DNA of 43,783 nt, taken from Candidatus Thermoplasmatota archaeon. GTDB lineage: Archaea; Thermoplasmatota; SW-10-69-26; JACQPN01; JAJPHT01. The stretch lies in assembly GCA_035540375.1 (NCBI GenBank), contig DATLGO010000079.1, forward strand, positions 1 through 43,783, read 5' to 3'. Below the pieces are notes generated by a model. It had not been told where the DNA came from and searched no databases. It was given only the letters and a program-made list of their open reading frames with translations. Shown one piece after another: positions 3 through 10,585 of this stretch; within the stretch, counting starts at the first letter, position 1; each line of letters begins with the position of its first letter. The position numbers were made by a program, and so were the translations under genes.

Positions 3-509
3 GTGAGCACGCGGCCAATTCGCGCCCCTGAGTTGCGACCTTGTTCACCGGATCGGTATTTAGAGGGCGCGCGGACTTCGGGTTATGTGGATCACCCGGG
101 TTCGCCGCGCGGCGAGGAAGCGTGCCCCTTCTGCACGAATCTCGACAGCGTATTCGAGGTCGGCTCGATCCGCGCCATCTATGATCGCTTCCCAGTGAAT
201 CCGGGTCATCTCCTTCTCGTCACGCGTCGGCACGTCGCCACGTGGTGGGATCTCTCCACCAGCGAGGAGAAGGACTTGCTCGAAGCCATCCGGCGAGCGC
301 GCAACGTCCTGGGAGCGAAGTGGAATCCGGATGCCTACAACATCGGGCACAACGCGGGGCTGGCGGCCGGCCAGACCGTGCCGCATTTCCACGTCCACGT
401 GATCCCGCGTTATACAGGGGACGTCCCGGACCCTCGAGGCGGGGTGCGGCACGTCATCCCAGCGAAAGGGAATTACCTCACGAGTCACCCAGAACGCGAC
501 CGAACGTAG
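3..509 (+). CDS. HIT-family nucleotide hydrolase/transferase
   Basis: A 168-residue histidine-triad protein. HIT proteins hydrolyse or transfer nucleotide phosphoramidates and dinucleotides through the middle His of H-x-H-x-H. Seen: the triad HFHVH (H128, H130, H132), a CPFC pair (C41, C44) of the kind that binds structural zinc in HIT proteins, and an NxGxxAGQTxPHxH approach typical of Fhit/HinT-like members. It starts with GTG only two bases into the window, so an upstream start cannot be excluded. The gene ends inside the 3' end of the convergent HNH gene (25-bp tail overlap). The substrate cannot be read from sequence. HIT genes are widespread housekeeping genes but also occur beside nucleases and helicases in defence-rich regions, so the HNH neighbour is suggestive only. 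Confidence 0.88.
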   Translation: MSTRPIRAPELRPCSPDRYLEGARTSGYVDHPGSPRGEEACPFCTNLDSVFEVGSIRAIYDRFPVNPGHLLLVTRRHVATWWDLSTSEEKDLLEAIRRARNVLGAKWNPDAYNIGHNAGLAAGQTVPHFHVHVIPRYTGDVPDPRGGVRHVIPAKGNYLTSHPERDRT

Positions 510-1486
510 GCAGCGTACTCCTGGAGCATCGTCATCGAGTCATCACGCCCGCCTGTCCAGATGCGTGGGCTCATCTTCAGACAGCGCGCGTAGGCTGCGA
601 GCATCGTCTTCGATCGCCTTTCTCCGGTATTGCCGAGCGCGTCGATGAGGCTGTTGCGGAGCGGATTCATGCTCCGAATCAGCGCCTCGTTCCGCGAGAC
701 CAATCGATCGATCATCGGCCGCGTCGGCAGTTGGTCGCTCTTGTTCCCGTTGCAGACGTCGTCGGCGAGCACGAGGTTCCAAAGCTCGTTGTGCCCCACG
801 AGGGCGTGCGGCAGGACGTGGTCGACGTGGATGCGATCGAGTTCGCCGCCGCAGTAGAAGCATCGATCACGCTGGTAGGGACTCAGCGCCGGAATGAGGT
901 GCGTGAGCGATACACGCCCCTGGCGAGTCTCGATGCTTCCCAAGAGCTCGTTCGCGGTCACGGCCTCCGGGTTCGCCGCGGTGAAGGCGTGTTCCAGCAG
1001 GTCCCAACGACTCAGCGCTTCCCGCCGCAGCATCTCGGCCTCCCCATCCACGAGACCCAGGAGACGAGGCGTAAGCAACAGCACGTTGCCGTCCTCCGGG
1101 TCCTCGAAGAAGCGGGGCGCTTGGACGCCACGGTCCAGGTTGTGGAACTTCTGAAGGACCATGTTCCTTAGCGCCTCTTCGCGCACGAGGTCGAGGCTCG
1201 CGTTGGCATCCTGCTGGAGGATGTTGCGCTCGACCACGGTCCACCGGCCCGCGATCGGCTGCTGGGGGCGGCCGCGGGCGACCCGGTCGCGATAGGCGTC
1301 CCGGAATCCGGCGGCGAGATCCGAAAGCGGGATCCGGTCGAGCCCCGCGTTCGCATGCCGCAGGAGCTCCGACGCGAGCGCGAGCTTGTAGGTCGAGGAA
1401 TTCCGCCCGAGCTGGACGATCCATTGCCATGCGACCTTGTCCGGCTCCCTGTTCGCCAACGGGGTTTGACTTGTGCGGTAGGTCAT
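485..1486 (-). CDS. HNH endonuclease domain protein
   Basis: A 333-residue protein with a C-terminal-half HNH (His-Me finger) nuclease fold. Seen in order: zinc pair CFYCGG (C209, C212), the catalytic D-H of HVDHVLP (D222, H223), and N237 with the CNGNKSD segment (C245, N248) closing the second zinc pair and the third catalytic position. This is the layout of stand-alone HNH proteins that cleave DNA with a divalent metal. The N-terminal ~200 residues are helical with no motif I recognise and may form a target-recognition or partner domain. ATG start. It overlaps the HIT gene by 25 bp tail to tail and is divergent from the Nudix-MBL gene. G+C falls towards its 3' end, unlike the rest of the chromosome, so transfer is possible. 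Whether it belongs to restriction, mobile-element or repair functions is undetermined. Confidence 0.82.
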   Translation of the reverse strand: MTYRTSQTPLANREPDKVAWQWIVQLGRNSSTYKLALASELLRHANAGLDRIPLSDLAAGFRDAYRDRVARGRPQQPIAGRWTVVERNILQQDANASLDLVREEALRNMVLQKFHNLDRGVQAPRFFEDPEDGNVLLLTPRLLGLVDGEAEMLRREALSRWDLLEHAFTAANPEAVTANELLGSIETRQGRVSLTHLIPALSPYQRDRCFYCGGELDRIHVDHVLPHALVGHNELWNLVLADDVCNGNKSDQLPTRPMIDRLVSRNEALIRSMNPLRNSLIDALGNTGERRSKTMLAAYARCLKMSPRIWTGGRDDSMTMLQEYAAYVRSRSG

Positions 1487-3057: not shown

Positions 3058-5721
3058 TCAATCTTCCACACGGCGCACGCGCAATGGGCGAGAACCAGCC
3101 TTTTCGTCCCCTGCCATCGCATCCACAGTCTCCATCACCTTTGTCTGGCCATCAATCTCAAACTGAGGCTGGCCCTGGTATTCGGTCACGAGGAGATTGG
3201 TGAAGGCATATTTCCTCCCGGCCTCCACTGTCGCCGGAAAATTTGTGGCCCAGGACGCGAAACGCACACTCTCTCGGCCGTTGTTCAGTAGGCCCGTCTG
3301 ATGCATGCGTGTTTCAGCTTGTCGTGGAGTGAGTGAATAGATCCGATCCACACGAAGGGTGCCAGAAACTCGTTGGCCCGCTTCAAGCGAATCCGTCTTC
3401 ACGATCTGATCGGCCTCCACCCCTTCGATCTCATCGATGAACCGCGACCGGCGGCCGTCTCGGACGACCAGATGGAGGCGTTGCATGGCACGGGTGAGAG
3501 CGACGTAGAACAGGCGTCGCTCTTCGGCGAGCGGATCTTCACCGCCCAATCGTACCGGTGCCAGCACGTCCGGATCTTCGACTTGAGGCGGGAACCCGTA
3601 TAGGTCCTCACTCGCGTCGAGGACAATCACCACGGCCGCTTCCGTACCCTTCGATTTGTGCGCGCTCTGCAATCGAACTCCCTTTGGCCCGTCTACGGGA
3701 ACTCGTTGACGGCGGAGCATCGGTCGAAGGTGGTCGAACGGCCAATTCACACGGGAGATGAGCAGGATCTCGTGCGGGTCATCCACCCGTTTTAATTCCG
3801 CGACGACCAATTCGACCACTTTGGCGAGGAGCTCTTCCAGCGCAGCTGCGACAATGTGGATCGTGGCTTCGGCCTCTGACTTGTTTGCCGCGTGCAGCTT
3901 CTTCTTGATCTGCCGGGTATTGTGGGCGATGACTGATTTTCCGGCCTCGACGATTAATTCGGGTGAGCGGTAGTTGGTCGTGAGGAATGTCGTCGTCGCT
4001 GGCCCAAAGTGATTCTCGAAGTCGACGATATACCCAATGTCGCCTCCGGAGAATGCAAAAATCCCTTGATAATCATCTCCGACGGCGAAGAGCTTCGTGT
4101 TCTCATTCACAAGGGCTTGGATCAGACGCGCCTTGTCAGGAGACACGTCTTGGAATTCATCTACAAGGACTTGGTCAAATGTGAATAGCTCGCCGACCTT
4201 ATCTGATTCGAGAGCCTCGGCGGCCTCGTAGAGCATATCGCTGAAATCAATTGCATCGTCTTTCGAAAGGAGCCCTTCGTATCGACGCAAGATCTCTGTC
4301 GCGCATTCACCAAAGGCGATGACGCGAGGCGTGTGTCCGATCAGTCTAATGGGTACATCGGCGGAAGAGAGTTGCAGGGCTCGGGCGTTCGTCACGAAGG
4401 CCCCGAACATCTTTGCGAGGTCGGCGTCTATGCGTTTAAATTCACGAATCTGCTCAGAAAGGGTCTTCAGGTCAATCGGATTCCCGACGATTCCAGCGTC
4501 CTCGAGTTCCTCCTGAAGTGAATCTTCGAGGATTCCATCTTTCCGCTGGTGATCGTAAGTCTCGATGAGCCGGTACCCTTTTTCCTCGAAGACGCGTCGT
4601 GCCCAAACCATCTTTTCTCGGTATTGCTCAGTCGTCTGGTTGAACCAGGCGGGCACCTCCCCATCCTCGTCGATTCCCCAATGCTCGATGTAGGCATTGT
4701 GGTCTACGAGATAGAAGTCGGGCCTGTACGGGCCCTTCCCCTGTGTTCGTGGCGCCCAGCGTGCGATATCCTCATGCACATACCGGATACCGTTCAAGAA
4801 AAGGTGATCGGCAATGATCCGTTCTCCGAGGGACCGGACTCGTTCTCCGTTCAGCGTGCGGTAGAGTTGATCCGGTGGTTGGGAGGGGACGTCCTCACGA
4901 TGGGAACGGAAATAATTCGCCAGCACCCGAAGATAGAGCTTCTCGAAGTGCAGGTCCTTCCCGGATTTCGCATTCTCAATCGAGCGGCGAATGAGATCCT
5001 TGAGCTTCTCCTCGTCGATGACGGCTGGGACATAGCCTCGCGCCTCTGCTACAATCTGCCTCCCGAGCGCATGCAGAGTCGAAGCGTGCGTCCCATCGAT
5101 GCCTCTGGCCTTTAAGCGCTCCTGAATCTCGCCCGCTGCTTCGCGGGTGTAACTCACGGCGAGGATCCGACTGGGCTCGACCCGGGCGACTCGCTTCGTG
5201 AGGTACTCCATGCGCGCGATGAGCACACGAGTTTTTCCTGCACCGGCGCCCGCGATGACGAGGTTGCGCTCGTCGTCGCGCAGGACGGCTTCGACCTGCT
5301 CGTCATTCAGTCCATGATCGATCCTCAGGAGCGCCTCGTGCCGCTTGAGTTCGATCTGAATGTGTTCCGTGTTGAATTCAGAGAGTCGCTTGCGAAGTAT
5401 TACCTCGTGAGCGGTTGCCGCCTCAAGGCGTCCGCGCAAGTCCGCGGGGAGTCGACGCGGAATTCGCGTTGATGCGGATGATAGGTCCTTCCGAGCGGCA
5501 TCCAGCTGGCTTGCCAGCTCTTTCTCCAACCGCTGGGTCATGTAGCGTGATGCTTCGCGAGTTTTTTTAATCGTAGCTGAGACCGATGAGAGAGTTATCT
5601 CGGCTCGAGGCACAGCCGCTGCGATTTCTTCGATTCTACGGCGTTCAACCAATCGAAACAAGGCATAGATTGCGAGAATGGTCGCGACGATGATTGCGAC
5701 TTCGAGGGCGCCAAGGGTCAA
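3058..5721 (-). CDS. Membrane-anchored UvrD/HelD-like helicase
   Basis: An 887-residue superfamily 1A helicase. Seen: an N-terminal hydrophobic segment (residues ~5-24, LEVAIIVATILAIYALFRLV) followed by basic residues and a coiled-coil-like stretch (~30-130). Motifs follow: Walker A AGAGAGKT (~158-164), Walker B DEFQD (~521-525), motif III GDDYQGIFAFSG (~548-559), motif IV NYRS (~583) and motif VI YVALTRAMQRL. Between the core halves (~295-350) is an insert with GERIIA...RPDFYL...YIEHWG, the PD-(D/E)XK-like pattern also present in helicase IV (HelD) relatives; whether the nuclease is active is unclear because the usual Lys is not evident. The start is TTG (plus-strand caa at 5719-5721), the only in-frame start that retains the membrane segment. 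It lies 88 bp downstream of the second helicase on the same strand. A DNA repair or anti-mobile-element role is inferred. Confidence 0.87.
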   Translation of the reverse strand: MTLGALEVAIIVATILAIYALFRLVERRRIEEIAAAVPRAEITLSSVSATIKKTREASRYMTQRLEKELASQLDAARKDLSSASTRIPRRLPADLRGRLEAATAHEVILRKRLSEFNTEHIQIELKRHEALLRIDHGLNDEQVEAVLRDDERNLVIAGAGAGKTRVLIARMEYLTKRVARVEPSRILAVSYTREAAGEIQERLKARGIDGTHASTLHALGRQIVAEARGYVPAVIDEEKLKDLIRRSIENAKSGKDLHFEKLYLRVLANYFRSHREDVPSQPPDQLYRTLNGERVRSLGERIIADHLFLNGIRYVHEDIARWAPRTQGKGPYRPDFYLVDHNAYIEHWGIDEDGEVPAWFNQTTEQYREKMVWARRVFEEKGYRLIETYDHQRKDGILEDSLQEELEDAGIVGNPIDLKTLSEQIREFKRIDADLAKMFGAFVTNARALQLSSADVPIRLIGHTPRVIAFGECATEILRRYEGLLSKDDAIDFSDMLYEAAEALESDKVGELFTFDQVLVDEFQDVSPDKARLIQALVNENTKLFAVGDDYQGIFAFSGGDIGYIVDFENHFGPATTTFLTTNYRSPELIVEAGKSVIAHNTRQIKKKLHAANKSEAEATIHIVAAALEELLAKVVELVVAELKRVDDPHEILLISRVNWPFDHLRPMLRRQRVPVDGPKGVRLQSAHKSKGTEAAVVIVLDASEDLYGFPPQVEDPDVLAPVRLGGEDPLAEERRLFYVALTRAMQRLHLVVRDGRRSRFIDEIEGVEADQIVKTDSLEAGQRVSGTLRVDRIYSLTPRQAETRMHQTGLLNNGRESVRFASWATNFPATVEAGRKYAFTNLLVTEYQGQPQFEIDGQTKVMETVDAMAGDEKAGSRPLRVRRVED

Positions 5722-5729
5722 TTTGCGTC

Positions 5730-5745
5730 ACCTTCAGGCGAAGGT
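5730..5745. promoter_or_regulatory. Inverted repeat between the two helicase genes
   Basis: A perfect 6-bp inverted repeat with a 4-nt spacer (ACCTTC-AGGC-GAAGGT) lies a few bases upstream of the UvrD-like gene, in the 88-bp spacer. It could be a weak hairpin in the shared transcript or a small operator. The repeat is seen; its function is unknown. Confidence 0.35.
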
Positions 5746-5809
5746 CGAACAGAATCTCGTATCCACTGGAGTCCGTCGCAGGATTGGCTAGACCTCCGCG
5801 AAGGTGCTG

Positions 5810-8110
5810 TCATAGGCCGACCTCGTGAAGCTGCTTTTGAATTCTAGCAACCTCGACGGTCAAGCCAGGGCTCATCGATGGTTCGCGCTTGAGCGCAGCG
5901 TCAAGCCCGTTCTTCTTGGCCATGAGGATTAGGCGGCGTCGTGTTGGGTCCTGGGAGGCTTCGAACACTTGCTTGATGCTGAGGATGGCGTTTTTCACGT
6001 CTCGATTCTCATCCTCGGGGGCCGTCGGTCTTTTGAGGAGCTCATCGTACAGTGCCGACACGTTCGTTCCCGGAGCGACTTGTGTCACAATCTGCCAAAG
6101 CTTCTGATGGCAAGTGTTCTTGTCGTGGCGTTTTTCGAAAGCCGATGCCAACATTCGGGCATGTTCGGCCGTGAATGTAAGCCGGTCGATGAGATCTGAC
6201 AGGCTCGTCAGACGGGTCAGAGGCGCGGCATCCCCAGTTCGGATGGCGACGTCCGCTTCGTTAACCCATGTAGGATCAAGCGAAATCATCGCCTCGATCT
6301 TTTGAATCCGTGGCCACTTCTGCAGTGACCAATAGGATGGATTGTTAGCCGGGCCCGTTGCGAAGGATTTCGACCCTATGATGATTGTGAGATGACGCGC
6401 ACGGGTCAGACTGACATTGAGGCGATTTGGGCTATCGTGACTTTTCTGCGGCTCGGTCGTGGTGAAGTCGTAGATAATGACGTCCTTCTCGCGACCCTGG
6501 AACGCATCAACGGTGCTGGATTCGATGCGGTACCCTCCTTCCAGGTGTCGGTGTGCGAGTCGGCGGAACACAGCGGTCTGGAGCCGATAGGGGGCGATGT
6601 AACCTAATTGATTTAATTCAAGTCCTTGAGGGCACAAATCTCGAACGATATGCAGCGCGAGAGCGACATGGCGCGCGTTGCCATACGAAGCAGAAGCAGC
6701 ACCCGGAAGCCAGCGGGGAAGGTGCTGATTCCTTTCCAGTTTCGTAGTATCGATCCATGCAACCGTCTGCTCCAATTGAACGCCGAAAAGCTTCGCATCG
6801 ACGGTGCCTTCGGTATCGTGGTCGACAAGGCGGTCCTGATAGAGTACGTGATTCGACCACGCCATGATTCCTGGAAGGCTTCTGTATTGAACTCGCAGAG
6901 TGACGACGAGGTCGGGCCTTTTCAGCGCAATCTGTTCGAAAGAACTGCGTGAGAAGCCCGGCCGCGAGGCGTAGGTCGGATCCTTGATGATGGGGGGGAG
7001 TTGCATATGGTCCCCGACAAGAATCAGTTTGTGCCCGGCAGCCCGGGCGATGAGGGTCGACGGAAGGAGGTTCATGCTTGCCTCGTCGACGATGACGAAA
7101 TCGAATGGAGTGTACTCACCTGCGGTCAGGTGCTTCATTCGGCCCGCGAGGCTCGAGAGCGTCATGCCGACAAGGGGGTGCTCAGCAAGAATCGCATCGA
7201 GGGGCCCTTCCCCTTCCGTCCTTTCCAATTCTTCGCGAGAGCGATAGTAGGGCTCCATGGCGTCGCTGATCTTGGCAGCCGTTCCAAGTCGCACCAGTTC
7301 GTCCTTGAGGTGCGGTGCAAGTCCGATTGCGCGCTCGAGCGCGTTATCGATGGCCACGTGAGTGTGCGCCGTTACGAGGACCGTTTGATTCGATTCTCTC
7401 AGGAGGCGGATCAAGTGGGCAATCACGGTCGTCTTGCCTGTTCCTGGAGGTCCTTGAATGAGCGCGACTCCCTGTTGTGCAACGCGGCGAGCATGGCAGA
7501 CGGCACGGACCTGTTCCTCGTTCAAGTCGTCTAAGCCATGAACCTCATCGACCTCCGGAGGGGTGATCGACAGCAAGTCGGTAGGGTCGAGGAAGCCATC
7601 TGCATCACTTGTATGCGTGCAGACGGCCTCGAAGGCCTGAAGGAGTGTTCGGGCCAGGTCAAGGCTCTTAACTCTTCGAACCTCTAACTCGGTTGCCTCA
7701 ATAATGTTCTCGGGAAACAATTCCGTTGACAGGGTGAGGCGACTCCCCGAGAAGGCGGTCACAAACCCCAGCTTAATGATCGATCCAAACTTGATCTCGC
7801 AGTTCTCTCCAATGTCGATGTTGAAATACTGATTCGATTGAACCTCGAGTTCAAGCCGCGCCTTGATCCGAGTCTCTCTCGCGTAGTCCAGCGCGCGGAC
7901 TTTGAACCATCGTATTTTCTTGTCTTCGGCAGCGGCCGCTTCAATTTCCTTCGTCAGGTAATCGCGATATACCTCAATGGGCGGAATTTGCAAGGGCAGC
8001 CCTGTGAGCAGCTGGGCGTCGCCACAGACCCTACAGATCGCCATTTGTCGACCGTCCGCAAGCAAGGACATGCGGGACGGTCGCGTGCAGCATGACTGGA
8101 GTGCGCTCAT
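5810..8110 (-). CDS. Upf1/DNA2-like SF1B helicase with N-terminal Cys cluster
   Basis: A 766-residue superfamily 1B helicase. Seen from the chosen start: an N-terminal Cys cluster (CC at 7-8 and CRVC at 26-29) that could bind zinc, a beta-rich region (~40-180), then Walker A GPPGTGKTT (~220-228), motif Ic-like TAHTHVAIDNAL, Walker B VDEAS (~341-345), motif III GDHMQLPP (~366-373), QYRS (motif IV), VDAFQGRE (motif V) and NVSLTRAR (motif VI). The C-terminal ~150 residues are helical and unassigned. ATG 8110 was chosen; a GTG at 8143 would add 11 residues. Family members unwind DNA or RNA 5'-3' and occur in nucleic-acid surveillance and in several antiphage systems. It is the promoter-proximal gene of the helicase pair, and its composition is unlike the chromosome. 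No gene symbol is justified. Confidence 0.86.
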   Translation of the reverse strand: MSALQSCCTRPSRMSLLADGRQMAICRVCGDAQLLTGLPLQIPPIEVYRDYLTKEIEAAAAEDKKIRWFKVRALDYARETRIKARLELEVQSNQYFNIDIGENCEIKFGSIIKLGFVTAFSGSRLTLSTELFPENIIEATELEVRRVKSLDLARTLLQAFEAVCTHTSDADGFLDPTDLLSITPPEVDEVHGLDDLNEEQVRAVCHARRVAQQGVALIQGPPGTGKTTVIAHLIRLLRESNQTVLVTAHTHVAIDNALERAIGLAPHLKDELVRLGTAAKISDAMEPYYRSREELERTEGEGPLDAILAEHPLVGMTLSSLAGRMKHLTAGEYTPFDFVIVDEASMNLLPSTLIARAAGHKLILVGDHMQLPPIIKDPTYASRPGFSRSSFEQIALKRPDLVVTLRVQYRSLPGIMAWSNHVLYQDRLVDHDTEGTVDAKLFGVQLEQTVAWIDTTKLERNQHLPRWLPGAASASYGNARHVALALHIVRDLCPQGLELNQLGYIAPYRLQTAVFRRLAHRHLEGGYRIESSTVDAFQGREKDVIIYDFTTTEPQKSHDSPNRLNVSLTRARHLTIIIGSKSFATGPANNPSYWSLQKWPRIQKIEAMISLDPTWVNEADVAIRTGDAAPLTRLTSLSDLIDRLTFTAEHARMLASAFEKRHDKNTCHQKLWQIVTQVAPGTNVSALYDELLKRPTAPEDENRDVKNAILSIKQVFEASQDPTRRRLILMAKKNGLDAALKREPSMSPGLTVEVARIQKQLHEVGL

Positions 8111-8143: not shown

Positions 8144-8334
8144 GCACAGAATCGCCTCGAGAGGTCATGTTGAGTGACGGTCCCGATGCACGAGGTAAGC
8201 GCCGAGTATGCCGTGAGAAACTTGGATGGATATAGATTTGATGTTGATTTACGAGGCTAATTTATTTCGTGCCCCGGCCCTGGGAATCACGAGTCTATTG
8301 GAGGGCGGGCCTGACCCCCCGTCCCCCACCCGCG
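8144..8334. other. Intergenic, AT-rich right edge of islet
   Basis: No gene is seen. Positions 8222-8270 are the most AT-rich stretch in the window and would suit promoter elements for the minus-strand helicases or an insertion junction. A C-rich run near 8310-8330 marks the return to chromosome-like composition. No terminal inverted repeat is recognised. Confidence 0.45.
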
Positions 8335-8610
8335 CTATCATGCCGCCAACCTCATCGCCTCCGGCCGATGCCCGAGCACAGTGTACTGCGCCACACCCGC
8401 GGAACATTCTCCCCGGATAGCTCGGCCCCCGTCCAAGTCAACGGACCTTCGGCGGTCTTAAAAAGAGAAAACCTCGAGAGCCCTGTCCCTCGTCTGCCAC
8501 CCTCGACGTGCCGTTCCCTCGCCTCGCGCGTCGATTCCAGGGGCTGCTTGTTAAGCGAGCCCTTCGGCGCGCCCGCCGCAATCACGACCGACGCGCCGCA
8601 GCGCGGCCGT
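8335..8610 (-). pseudogene. Decayed DUF99 fragment (paralogue of 10043-10585)
   Basis: The minus strand encodes residues recognisably matching the C-terminal half of the intact DUF99 protein at 10043-10585: FSLFKTAEGPLTWTGAELSG here against FSLLETAEGPLAWTGAGISA there, preceded by EARERHVEGGRR against AAMERHVGEWRR and followed by ENVPR against DDVPR. Similarity continues at nucleotide level to about 8335 (the region encoding GYRPEALRLA in the intact copy), but in another frame after a stop at 8352, and fades upstream of about 8610. The N-terminal half is absent. It therefore looks like a truncated, frameshifted copy, either a local duplication or a remnant of a second DUF99 gene. Its divergence from the intact copy suggests it is not recent. 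Confidence 0.8.
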
Positions 8611-8628: not shown

Positions 8629-9899
8629 CTACCCCCCGCACCCGACACGCTCGAACGCGGGCGCCTCCGCGAGCCACGGCTCGTACGCGAGGTTCGCCCC
8701 GTACGGCGCGTACCGGTTCCCGTCGCCCGTTCCGGCGCCGCTCGGCCCGCTCGGGTGGCCCCACCAGTTGCCGACGGCGGAGCCGTGGTGGGCGCGGAGG
8801 GCGAGCCACGCGTTCGCGCCTTCGAAGCGGTTGCCGACCGCCGTCGCGTTGGCGGCGGAGATCGTGGCGCCGCCCCACGAGGCATCGCCGAAGCGGTTGT
8901 CTTCGAGCCGGAGGGTCCCGGTGAGGACGACGCGCGAGAAGGGGGTGTCGGGCACGGGTTCGACATGGTGGAGCTGGATGCGCGCGTGCCAGACGTTGTC
9001 CTGGAAGTCGTTGCCCTTCACGAGCACGGAGGTCGCGCCCTGGACCTCGAGCGCGGGGTCGCCCGAGGACGCGAAGCGGTTGCCGCAGAAGGCGAGCGCG
9101 CCGTGCGCGCTCGTGGATTCGGAGGACCACGCGTAGAATTGTCCGCCGTCGATGAACGCGTTGTTTCCACGACGAGCTTGTCGACGCCTCGGCCGAGCGT
9201 GAGGTCGGCGCCGCGGAACTCGCTGCCCCGGAACGCGACGTCCGTCGAGCGCGCGACCGTGACCGTCCCGGCGTCCCAGTTCGGATACGCGGACGGGCCG
9301 AACCGCGCGCCCGCCACCGCGACGCCGGACGAGTCCTGGATGAGGAGGTTGCGCCAGCCGAGCGATTCGGTGTGGAGGCCCGCGAGCGTCACGTCGGCGC
9401 TGTTCAGGACGCGGTTCGCGTCGCCGAAGAAGCGGGGGTCCGGGCCGCCGCGGTGGGAGAACCCGTCGACCGCGACGTCTCGCGAATCGAGGATCGTGAG
9501 GCCGATCTCGAAGTGGTGCACGCGAACGTCCTCGAGGACGACGTTGCGGGCGCCTTCGATGCGGACGGCCTCGTAGAAAGGGCACTCGACCTGGCAGGCC
9601 GGGCCGAGGATCTCGACGTCCTTCACGAGGACATGCGCGCTCGTGCCCATGAGGACGATGCCGAGCGCGCCCGTGAGCGCCGTTGGCTGCGCGATCGTCC
9701 AGTGCGCGATCACGAAGGGGTCGGCCTCCGTGCCGGACCCGGACCGCACGCCCGACCCAGGCAGGAGGAAGCCCGCGTCGCCGACGATGACGATCGGCGG
9801 ATGGGCCCGCGTGTGGGTTTCCGGAGCGGGCGTCGCGCTCGCGCCCGCGAGGGTGAGAAGCGCGAGGACGACGATGACGCCGACCTTGGCTGCGTGCAT
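8629..9899 (-). CDS. Secreted NosD-like right-handed beta-helix protein, frameshifted
   Basis: The reading frame is broken once. The first frame (ATG 9899 to about 9166) gives a signal peptide (MHAAKVGVIVVLALLTLAGA) followed by parallel beta-helix repeats of the NosD/PbH1 kind (NVVLEDVRVHHF, GVAVAGARFG, DVAFRGSEF). The second frame resumes at about 9163 (NNAFIDGGQFYAWSS) and continues repeats to a stop at 8629 (LEDNRFGDASWGG, NWWGHPSGPSG). Adding one base in the ttgtttcc run (plus strand 9161-9168) would rejoin both parts into one protein of about 423 residues. Right-handed beta-helix proteins act outside the cell as polysaccharide-binding or lytic enzymes, or as periplasmic factors. A GGAGG 7 nt before the ATG and a TATA-like box support the start. 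The break may be a real pseudogenising deletion or a sequencing error. Confidence 0.75.
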
Positions 9900-10042: not shown

Positions 10043-10585
10043 TCACGCTCGCGCCACGAGGCCGGCCAATCTCAAGGCCTCCGGCCGGTAGCCGAGCACG
10101 GTGTATTGGGCGAGCGTCCGCGGAACGTCGTCGGCGGATATCCCGGCGCCGGTCCAGGCCAGCGGGCCCTCCGCCGTCTCGAGCAGCGAGAATCGGCATC
10201 GCTCGAGCGCCTCCCACGGGCGCCGCCATTCCCCGACGTGCCTTTCCATCGCCGCGCGCATGGCCTCGAGATCGGGCACCCCGGCGGAGACCGCGAGCAC
10301 GGGCACCCCCAGGCGGCGATGCAGCGCCTCGACGTCCACCACGTTGAACCCCCCGTACGTGACGCCGTCGAGGAACACGAGCCGGACCTCGTGCCCGAAA
10401 CGGGACGAGAGCAAGGCGTCCGCGAGGCGCTCGGTCGCGTCGGTCCCGTCCACCGCGACCGAGGTGCGGAACATGCCTTCGACGTACCAGGCCCCGCGGG
10501 TCACCACGGCCGCGACCGGGGCCCGCGCGTCGCCGAAGGAGAACGGCCCGTCGTCGAACCCCACCACGCGCGCTTCCGCCTTCAC
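10043..10585 (-). CDS. DUF99 family protein (endonuclease V-related fold)
   Basis: A 180-residue protein matching the archaeal DUF99 family, related in fold to endonuclease V; its biochemical role is not established. Seen: N-terminal RVVGFDDGPF, central LVFLDGVTYGGFNVVD, and C-terminal FSLLETAEGPLAWTGAGI and QYTVLGYRPEALRLA, all family-typical and in order. GTG start. It ends 143 bp upstream of the beta-helix gene on the same strand and begins 10 bp after the stop of the pterin dehydratase gene, so it is probably cotranscribed with it. A decayed partial copy lies at 8335-8610. Length is normal for the family. Confidence 0.88.
   Translation of the reverse strand: MKAEARVVGFDDGPFSFGDARAPVAAVVTRGAWYVEGMFRTSVAVDGTDATERLADALLSSRFGHEVRLVFLDGVTYGGFNVVDVEALHRRLGVPVLAVSAGVPDLEAMRAAMERHVGEWRRPWEALERCRFSLLETAEGPLAWTGAGISADDVPRTLAQYTVLGYRPEALRLAGLVARA

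Follow-up and report, generated by a model that had tools for sequence, protein, structure and literature searches.

Two SF1 helicase genes in a low-G+C islet of a Thermoplasmatota archaeon: a predicted membrane-anchored UvrD-type nuclease-helicase and its Upf1/DNA2-type neighbor

When two helicase genes stand side by side in DNA of foreign composition, do they form one defense module, or have two independent genes come to share an islet? This question is raised by a locus of Candidatus Thermoplasmatota archaeon (GCA_035540375.1), in which the genes P0001 and P0002 lie on the minus strand with an 88-nt gap and no gene between them (Table 1). The window, that is, the entire stretch of DNA analyzed (43,783 nucleotides), is the whole of contig C79 (DATLGO010000079.1) from a genome of 3.13 Mb that is 97% complete. 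An earlier note on this DNA had described a same-strand pair of unrelated SF1 helicases, 1A and 1B, sitting alone in foreign DNA. Both ORFs are present, filling an islet of 5.1 kb, and Pfam supports both classes. The foreign composition was also borne out: the G+C content of the islet is 56.7% versus 71.0 ± 1.1% in native 5-kb tiles, and the GC3 of the two genes is 0.64 and 0.65 versus mostly 0.82-0.97 elsewhere. The islet does not stand entirely by itself: the nearby HIT and HNH genes (3-1486) are also of lower G+C (0.645). The note had placed its end at 8110, which is an internal ATG, codon 12 of the GTG-started P0002 ORF. No close relatives of P0001 or P0002 were found in the six other genomes of the class that were searched, which together with the foreign composition indicates that the islet is horizontally acquired. 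Scans for bacterial-type promoters and terminators gave results at chance level.

Table 1. Coordinates of the islet genes, their domains, the genes to the left and freestanding relatives of the nuclease insert (window positions unless a locus is named).
Feature	Coordinates	Strand	Description
P0001	3058-5721	-	887 aa; membrane-anchored (predicted) UvrD/helicase-IV-type SF1A helicase, inserted putative PD-(D/E)XK nuclease, C-terminal RPA-like OB domain
Predicted transmembrane segment of P0001, residues 3-21	5659-5715	-	Mean Kyte-Doolittle 2.35; runs into helix 2-56, then helical stalk 63-135
Vsr-like putative PD-(D/E)XK insert of P0001, residues 288-394	4540-4860	-	E300, D335, E346; K370
RPA-like OB domain of P0001, residues 802-867	3121-3318	-	NF005553 over 803-865; phmmer 5e-11, 1e-6, 1e-3
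P0002	5810-8143	-	SF1B helicase of the Upf1/DNA2 type, 777 aa; ATG at 8110 as alternative start
CC-x17-CxxC cluster of P0002, near residues 18-40	8024-8092	-	Putative zinc ribbon
C-terminal helical domain of P0002, residues 601-777	5813-6343	-	Model helices at 714-774
HIT gene	3-509	+	Lower G+C; convergent with HNH gene
HNH gene	485-1486	-	Lower G+C; absent from other class genomes
Freestanding proteins with nuclease domain related to P0001 insert	L203:4721-5704; L206:4434-4874	-; -	Hydrophobic N-terminus

The assignments to SF1A and SF1B are right because P0001 matches UvrD-helicase (2e-41) and UvrD_C (3e-18) in Pfam, versus AAA_11/AAA_12 (about 1e-33) for P0002. P0001 had been called HelD-like; this does not hold for HelD as an RNA-polymerase recycling factor (NF041464, 50 bits against a cutoff of 419), and the correct label is helicase IV/UvrD-like. 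Read along its sequence, P0001 consists of a predicted transmembrane (TM) helix, a helical stalk, a complete UvrD motor with an insert, and an RPA-like ssDNA-binding domain. A structure model of residues 1-775, built with 27 sequences, is confident (mean pLDDT 78.8 overall) and displays a single helix at 2-56, the stalk to residue 135, the motor, and an alpha-beta-beta-beta-alpha-beta insert at 298-389. Foldseek ranked PcrA/UvrD as the best match, followed by AddA, AdnB, RecB and HelD. The N-terminal membrane anchor suggested earlier was likewise predicted here; P0001 is probably anchored, with a predicted topology that depends on the TTG start, which is preceded by AGGTGA 7 nt upstream and by a stop codon a few codons before. 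The OB domain, which is not resolved in the model, matches replication factor A and is shared by three haloarchaeal plasmid relatives (phmmer); an RPA-like protein from a genome of the same phylum (L207) is a further basis for it.

The insert, located between helicase motifs Ic and II, is a putative PD-(D/E)XK nuclease on the basis of conserved residues and predicted fold, as the earlier note had proposed. E300, D335, E346 and Y367 are invariant across the aligned archaeal, plasmid and prophage relatives (alignments A1 and A3), and the first three are accompanied by the order of secondary structure elements in the model. P0001 shares the UvrD core and the SxxE, PDF and Y-x-E-H/Y motifs of its family together with a helix-borne lysine shifted by one turn. 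Most relatives carry this catalytic-type lysine on the following helix, aligned with A374 of P0001; in P0001 and two haloarchaeal plasmid proteins this site is an alanine, and a lysine is found one helical turn earlier (K370 in P0001). Judged from the alignment, the lack of a lysine at the commonest position counts against the nuclease reading; the arrangement suggests a migrating lysine with no evident loss. The nearest Pfam families of the insert are Vsr and DUF559, both sub-threshold and reached via a freestanding relative.

Does P0001 belong to a known system? DNA helicase IV (E. coli HelD, NF008276) shares its UvrD-type SF1A core and was the best equivalog match, but the score of 269.7 bits fell short of the cutoff of 543, and the model, at 684 residues, is too short to accommodate the nuclease insert and the OB domain. 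AddA, RecB and AdnB resemble P0001 in joining a UvrD-type motor and a PD-(D/E)XK nuclease in one chain, and their folds match. Their nuclease is C-terminal, whereas that of P0001 is inserted between motifs, and P0001 is probably membrane anchored and apparently solo. Hna, an SF2-type protein that is not known to have a membrane anchor, also combines helicase and nuclease in a single protein. It is a single-protein antiphage system acting on ssDNA (PMC13381803). The RmuC-domain protein ShdA of the Shield system, a membrane-bound, nuclease-active antiphage defense protein (PMC10270631), and E. coli RmuC (PMC1189080) each have an N-terminal TM helix, a helical/coiled-coil stalk and a cytoplasmic PD-(D/E)XK-type nuclease. 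P0001 is predicted to have the same elements and adds a full helicase motor; the RmuC domain (PF02646) was not among its Pfam matches. GajB of Gabija shares the UvrD-type core, with partial PADLOC profile matches down to 9.5e-51, but these covered core segments only, whereas a true GajB (L051) matched at 1.5e-266 over its whole length. Furthermore, GajA, the OLD-type ATPase-nuclease, was not found among P0001-P0004; the neighbors are P0002 and the MBL/NUDIX, HNH and HIT genes. By analogy, P0001 most likely works like ShdA, Hna or AddA/RecB while being a member of none of them.

P0002 has the AAA_11/AAA_12 core (SF1B core at 207-595) and the conserved helicase motifs of Upf1/DNA2-type SF1B helicases. 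Its core is nearest to Dna2, Ighmbp2 and Upf1, with Dna2 as the top fold. The same type of core occurs in Mokosh MkoA/MkoC, CoCoNuT CnuH and IGHMBP2 (TIGR00376). In Mokosh the helicase is fused to, or encoded next to, a kinase (type I) or a PLD domain (type II). P0002 aligned with the helicase part of MkoA only (profile 775-1081 of 1112), with no kinase or PLD domain among its best Pfam matches, and scored 209 against the TIGR00376 cutoff of 348.9. CnuH, also Upf1-like, carries a helical insertion behind its Walker A motif and is encoded beside CnuE and McrBC-type genes (PMC11090510); the alignment of P0002 contained no such insertion, and no McrB or wHTH-effector gene was present among the neighbors scanned. 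The earlier note had failed to match the pair to a named system, and we also found no match to a complete one, since Gabija, Mokosh, CoCoNuT, the RNA-polymerase-associated HelD and RmuC each failed in a defining feature.

Outside the core, P0002 has the N-terminal CC...CxxC cluster noted previously, with the CC pair about 17 residues ahead of CxxC. Its closest relative in the phylum, encoded in the genome G062 (L224; 39% identity over residues 150-619, E 2.5e-83), has CxC-x16-CxxC at the equivalent place; the spacing is similar but the alignment is no better than shuffles (score 28 versus a shuffled mean of 27.8), so that homology of the two clusters is suggestive only. The N-terminal part used as a sole query gave no match on plasmids. 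The C-terminal domain had been called unassigned, and it indeed had no detectable homologue in Pfam or plasmids and lies outside the alignable region of the best relative. The G062 gene has native-like G+C (0.63-0.71), is without the C-terminal domain, and stands alone. A second, partial relative was found in G151 (44% over 459-617). The most fitting reading of P0002 is a surveillance helicase that works independently.

Relatives of P0001 are widespread. They were detected in 738 plasmid records, many prophage or viral contigs, and several genomes of the same phylum; a search of genome contigs gave one distant match, from Roseobacter. In viral contigs, single-sequence patterns revealed no close relatives, whereas alignment-based scans did find many P0001 relatives. 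Full-length relatives are mostly solo. Among distinct relatives with the nuclease motif, 9 of 45 have a TM-like N-terminus (10 of 46 counting P0001), including proteins of Paenisporosarcina, Roseomonas and Halorhabdus and of three genomes from the same phylum as the window; the others have a longer soluble N-terminus instead. Freestanding proteins that combine a hydrophobic N-terminus with a nuclease related to the insert occur in G001 (same family) and G005 (same class). Both the recurrence of the anchor and these freestanding versions among related genomes suggest that DNA is degraded at the membrane. The plasmid neighbors of P0001 relatives vary, with DUF262, Lit, abortive-infection, MazEF, methyltransferase or helicase genes often among them, a hint of defense from elements that are generally rich in defense genes; several relatives in the same phylum have neighbors that look like housekeeping genes.

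Two haloarchaeal plasmid relatives (L045:6918-10700 and L046:5679-10292, both on the plus strand) are ORFs of 1260 and 1537 aa with large N-terminal extensions, and the Halorhabdus member of this pair also begins with a TM-like segment. Soluble fusions of an insert-related nuclease to winged-helix/KilAC-like domains were observed as well (L204 and L205).

Literature searches, of incomplete coverage, found no description of this UvrD nuclease-helicase family. Taken from sequence comparison, the family comprises widespread, unnamed solo nuclease-helicases common on plasmids and prophages, and it is a real variation on the UvrD-nuclease theme that has been too little described. UvrD proteins with an embedded nuclease are abundant on plasmids and prophages, yet PADLOC, Pfam and NCBIfam, as searched, hold no model of the class, and such proteins are currently annotated only as 'UvrD-helicase domain-containing protein'.

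We then asked whether the two families travel together. Outside the phylum of the window, the search for the pair covered plasmids, phages and viral contigs. A concatenated query of the P0002 and P0001 cores matched 970 plasmid records, none with at least 80% coverage (best 60-63%), and no phage record exceeded 60%. The fetched loci, many of them short, comprised 79 with a P0001 relative, 47 with a P0002 relative and none with both; alignment-based scans of viral contigs likewise gave no locus with both genes, and the G062 genome had no P0001 match. The earlier note had proposed the pair as one module and had itself named rare adjacency elsewhere as an observation that would speak against it. 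This is what was found: plasmids, phages, viral contigs and the phylum sample yielded no co-occurrence of the two families. The absence of shared loci and the lack of P0001 beside the best P0002 relative leave a two-gene module unsupported. The islet looks like two independently mobile, possibly antiviral enzymes in one place, not a conserved two-part system. This negative result prevents a spurious two-component system from entering catalogues.

We lean, by a little, toward an islet in which two helicase genes, each mobile on its own, share a direction of transcription; P0001 would be a self-contained membrane-tethered translocating DNase, and P0002 would act by itself. The TM helix would keep P0001 at the cell membrane, the OB domain would load it onto single-stranded or unwound DNA, the SF1A motor would pull in the 3'-5' direction, and the inserted nuclease would cut the unwound DNA, whereby incoming viral or plasmid DNA may be degraded or the infected cell aborted. 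P0002 would be a helicase of the Upf1/DNA2 type with 5'-3' polarity and a putative zinc ribbon, working alone on DNA or RNA. The substrate, polarity, location and antiviral role of P0001 are those that its families suggest, and a defense role for P0001 alone is plausible. Against reading the genes as independent, a one-off operon can still be functional.

A bolder version, which we regard as possible but unlikely, is that P0001 represents a class, so far undescribed, of single-gene antiviral nuclease-helicases that are tethered to the membrane of archaea and bacteria and degrade DNA on entry. Its members would combine a TM anchor, a coiled stalk, a UvrD motor with an embedded Vsr-like nuclease and an archaeal RPA-type OB clamp, and P0002 would serve this lineage as an accessory sensor. 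It also seems improbable that a mobile element brought both in as accessory genes for DNA repair or replication, P0001 as a repair nuclease resembling helicase IV and P0002 as a helicase resembling Dna2, with no part in defense. E. coli helicase IV as the closest named relative of P0001 (NF008276, 5.5e-80), the Dna2 fold of P0002, and plasmid relatives near ssb and umuD genes are consistent with repair, but the distribution is patchy, mobile and absent from the rest of the class, and a membrane anchor is unusual for repair.

More doubtful still is a cooperating module, either a bipolar two-motor complex like RecB plus RecD (a 3'-5' SF1A helicase with nuclease and a 5'-3' SF1B helicase) or a helicase acting as sensor for a membrane-bound nuclease effector. 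The shared strand, short gap and common foreign composition would fit it, and pairings of this kind occur, since two Vibrio plasmids carry an SF1B plus NERD-UvrD pair of another kind; the failure of the two families to co-occur and the P0002-only state of G062 argue against it. A physical partnership between P0001 and P0002 is possible, though unsupported by co-occurrence.

The Vibrio pair (L050:5369-9069 and L051:5479-8999) consists of an SF1B helicase of about 575 aa with a NERD-type UvrD helicase directly behind it. One copy lies near Gabija and the other in an integrase/VapE/HNH element, and the pair is a candidate two-helicase defense module.

The surroundings of the islet bear on how it arrived. 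To the left lies an MBL/NUDIX gene of native composition, followed by the lower-G+C HNH and HIT genes, whose families also adjoin on Hymenobacter and Persicobacter plasmids (NZ_CP114769.1 and NZ_AP025302.1) and may represent a further mobile unit of two genes. Lying exactly at the islet's right edge is a decayed, frameshifted 3' fragment of Endo_dU (8331-8529, minus strand) with 69% identity to the intact Endo_dU (DUF99) gene at 10043-10585, 1.7 kb away; it could mark an integration site. Given this fragment on one side and the HNH and HIT genes on the other, the islet may be what is left of a mobile element, or else a small hotspot. That it is the remnant of an element integrated at the Endo_dU 3' end, with the helicases as its replication, maintenance or exclusion genes, is very unlikely despite these two border features, as the low-G+C stretch yielded no integrase, replication or relaxase gene, the MBL/NUDIX gene separates the HNH/HIT part, and the contig ends at the HIT gene. 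Beyond the fragment, an apparent beta-helix-like surface protein (8629-9899, minus strand) extends across two frames (9018-9899 and 8629-9585), which points to a frameshift or a sequencing error.
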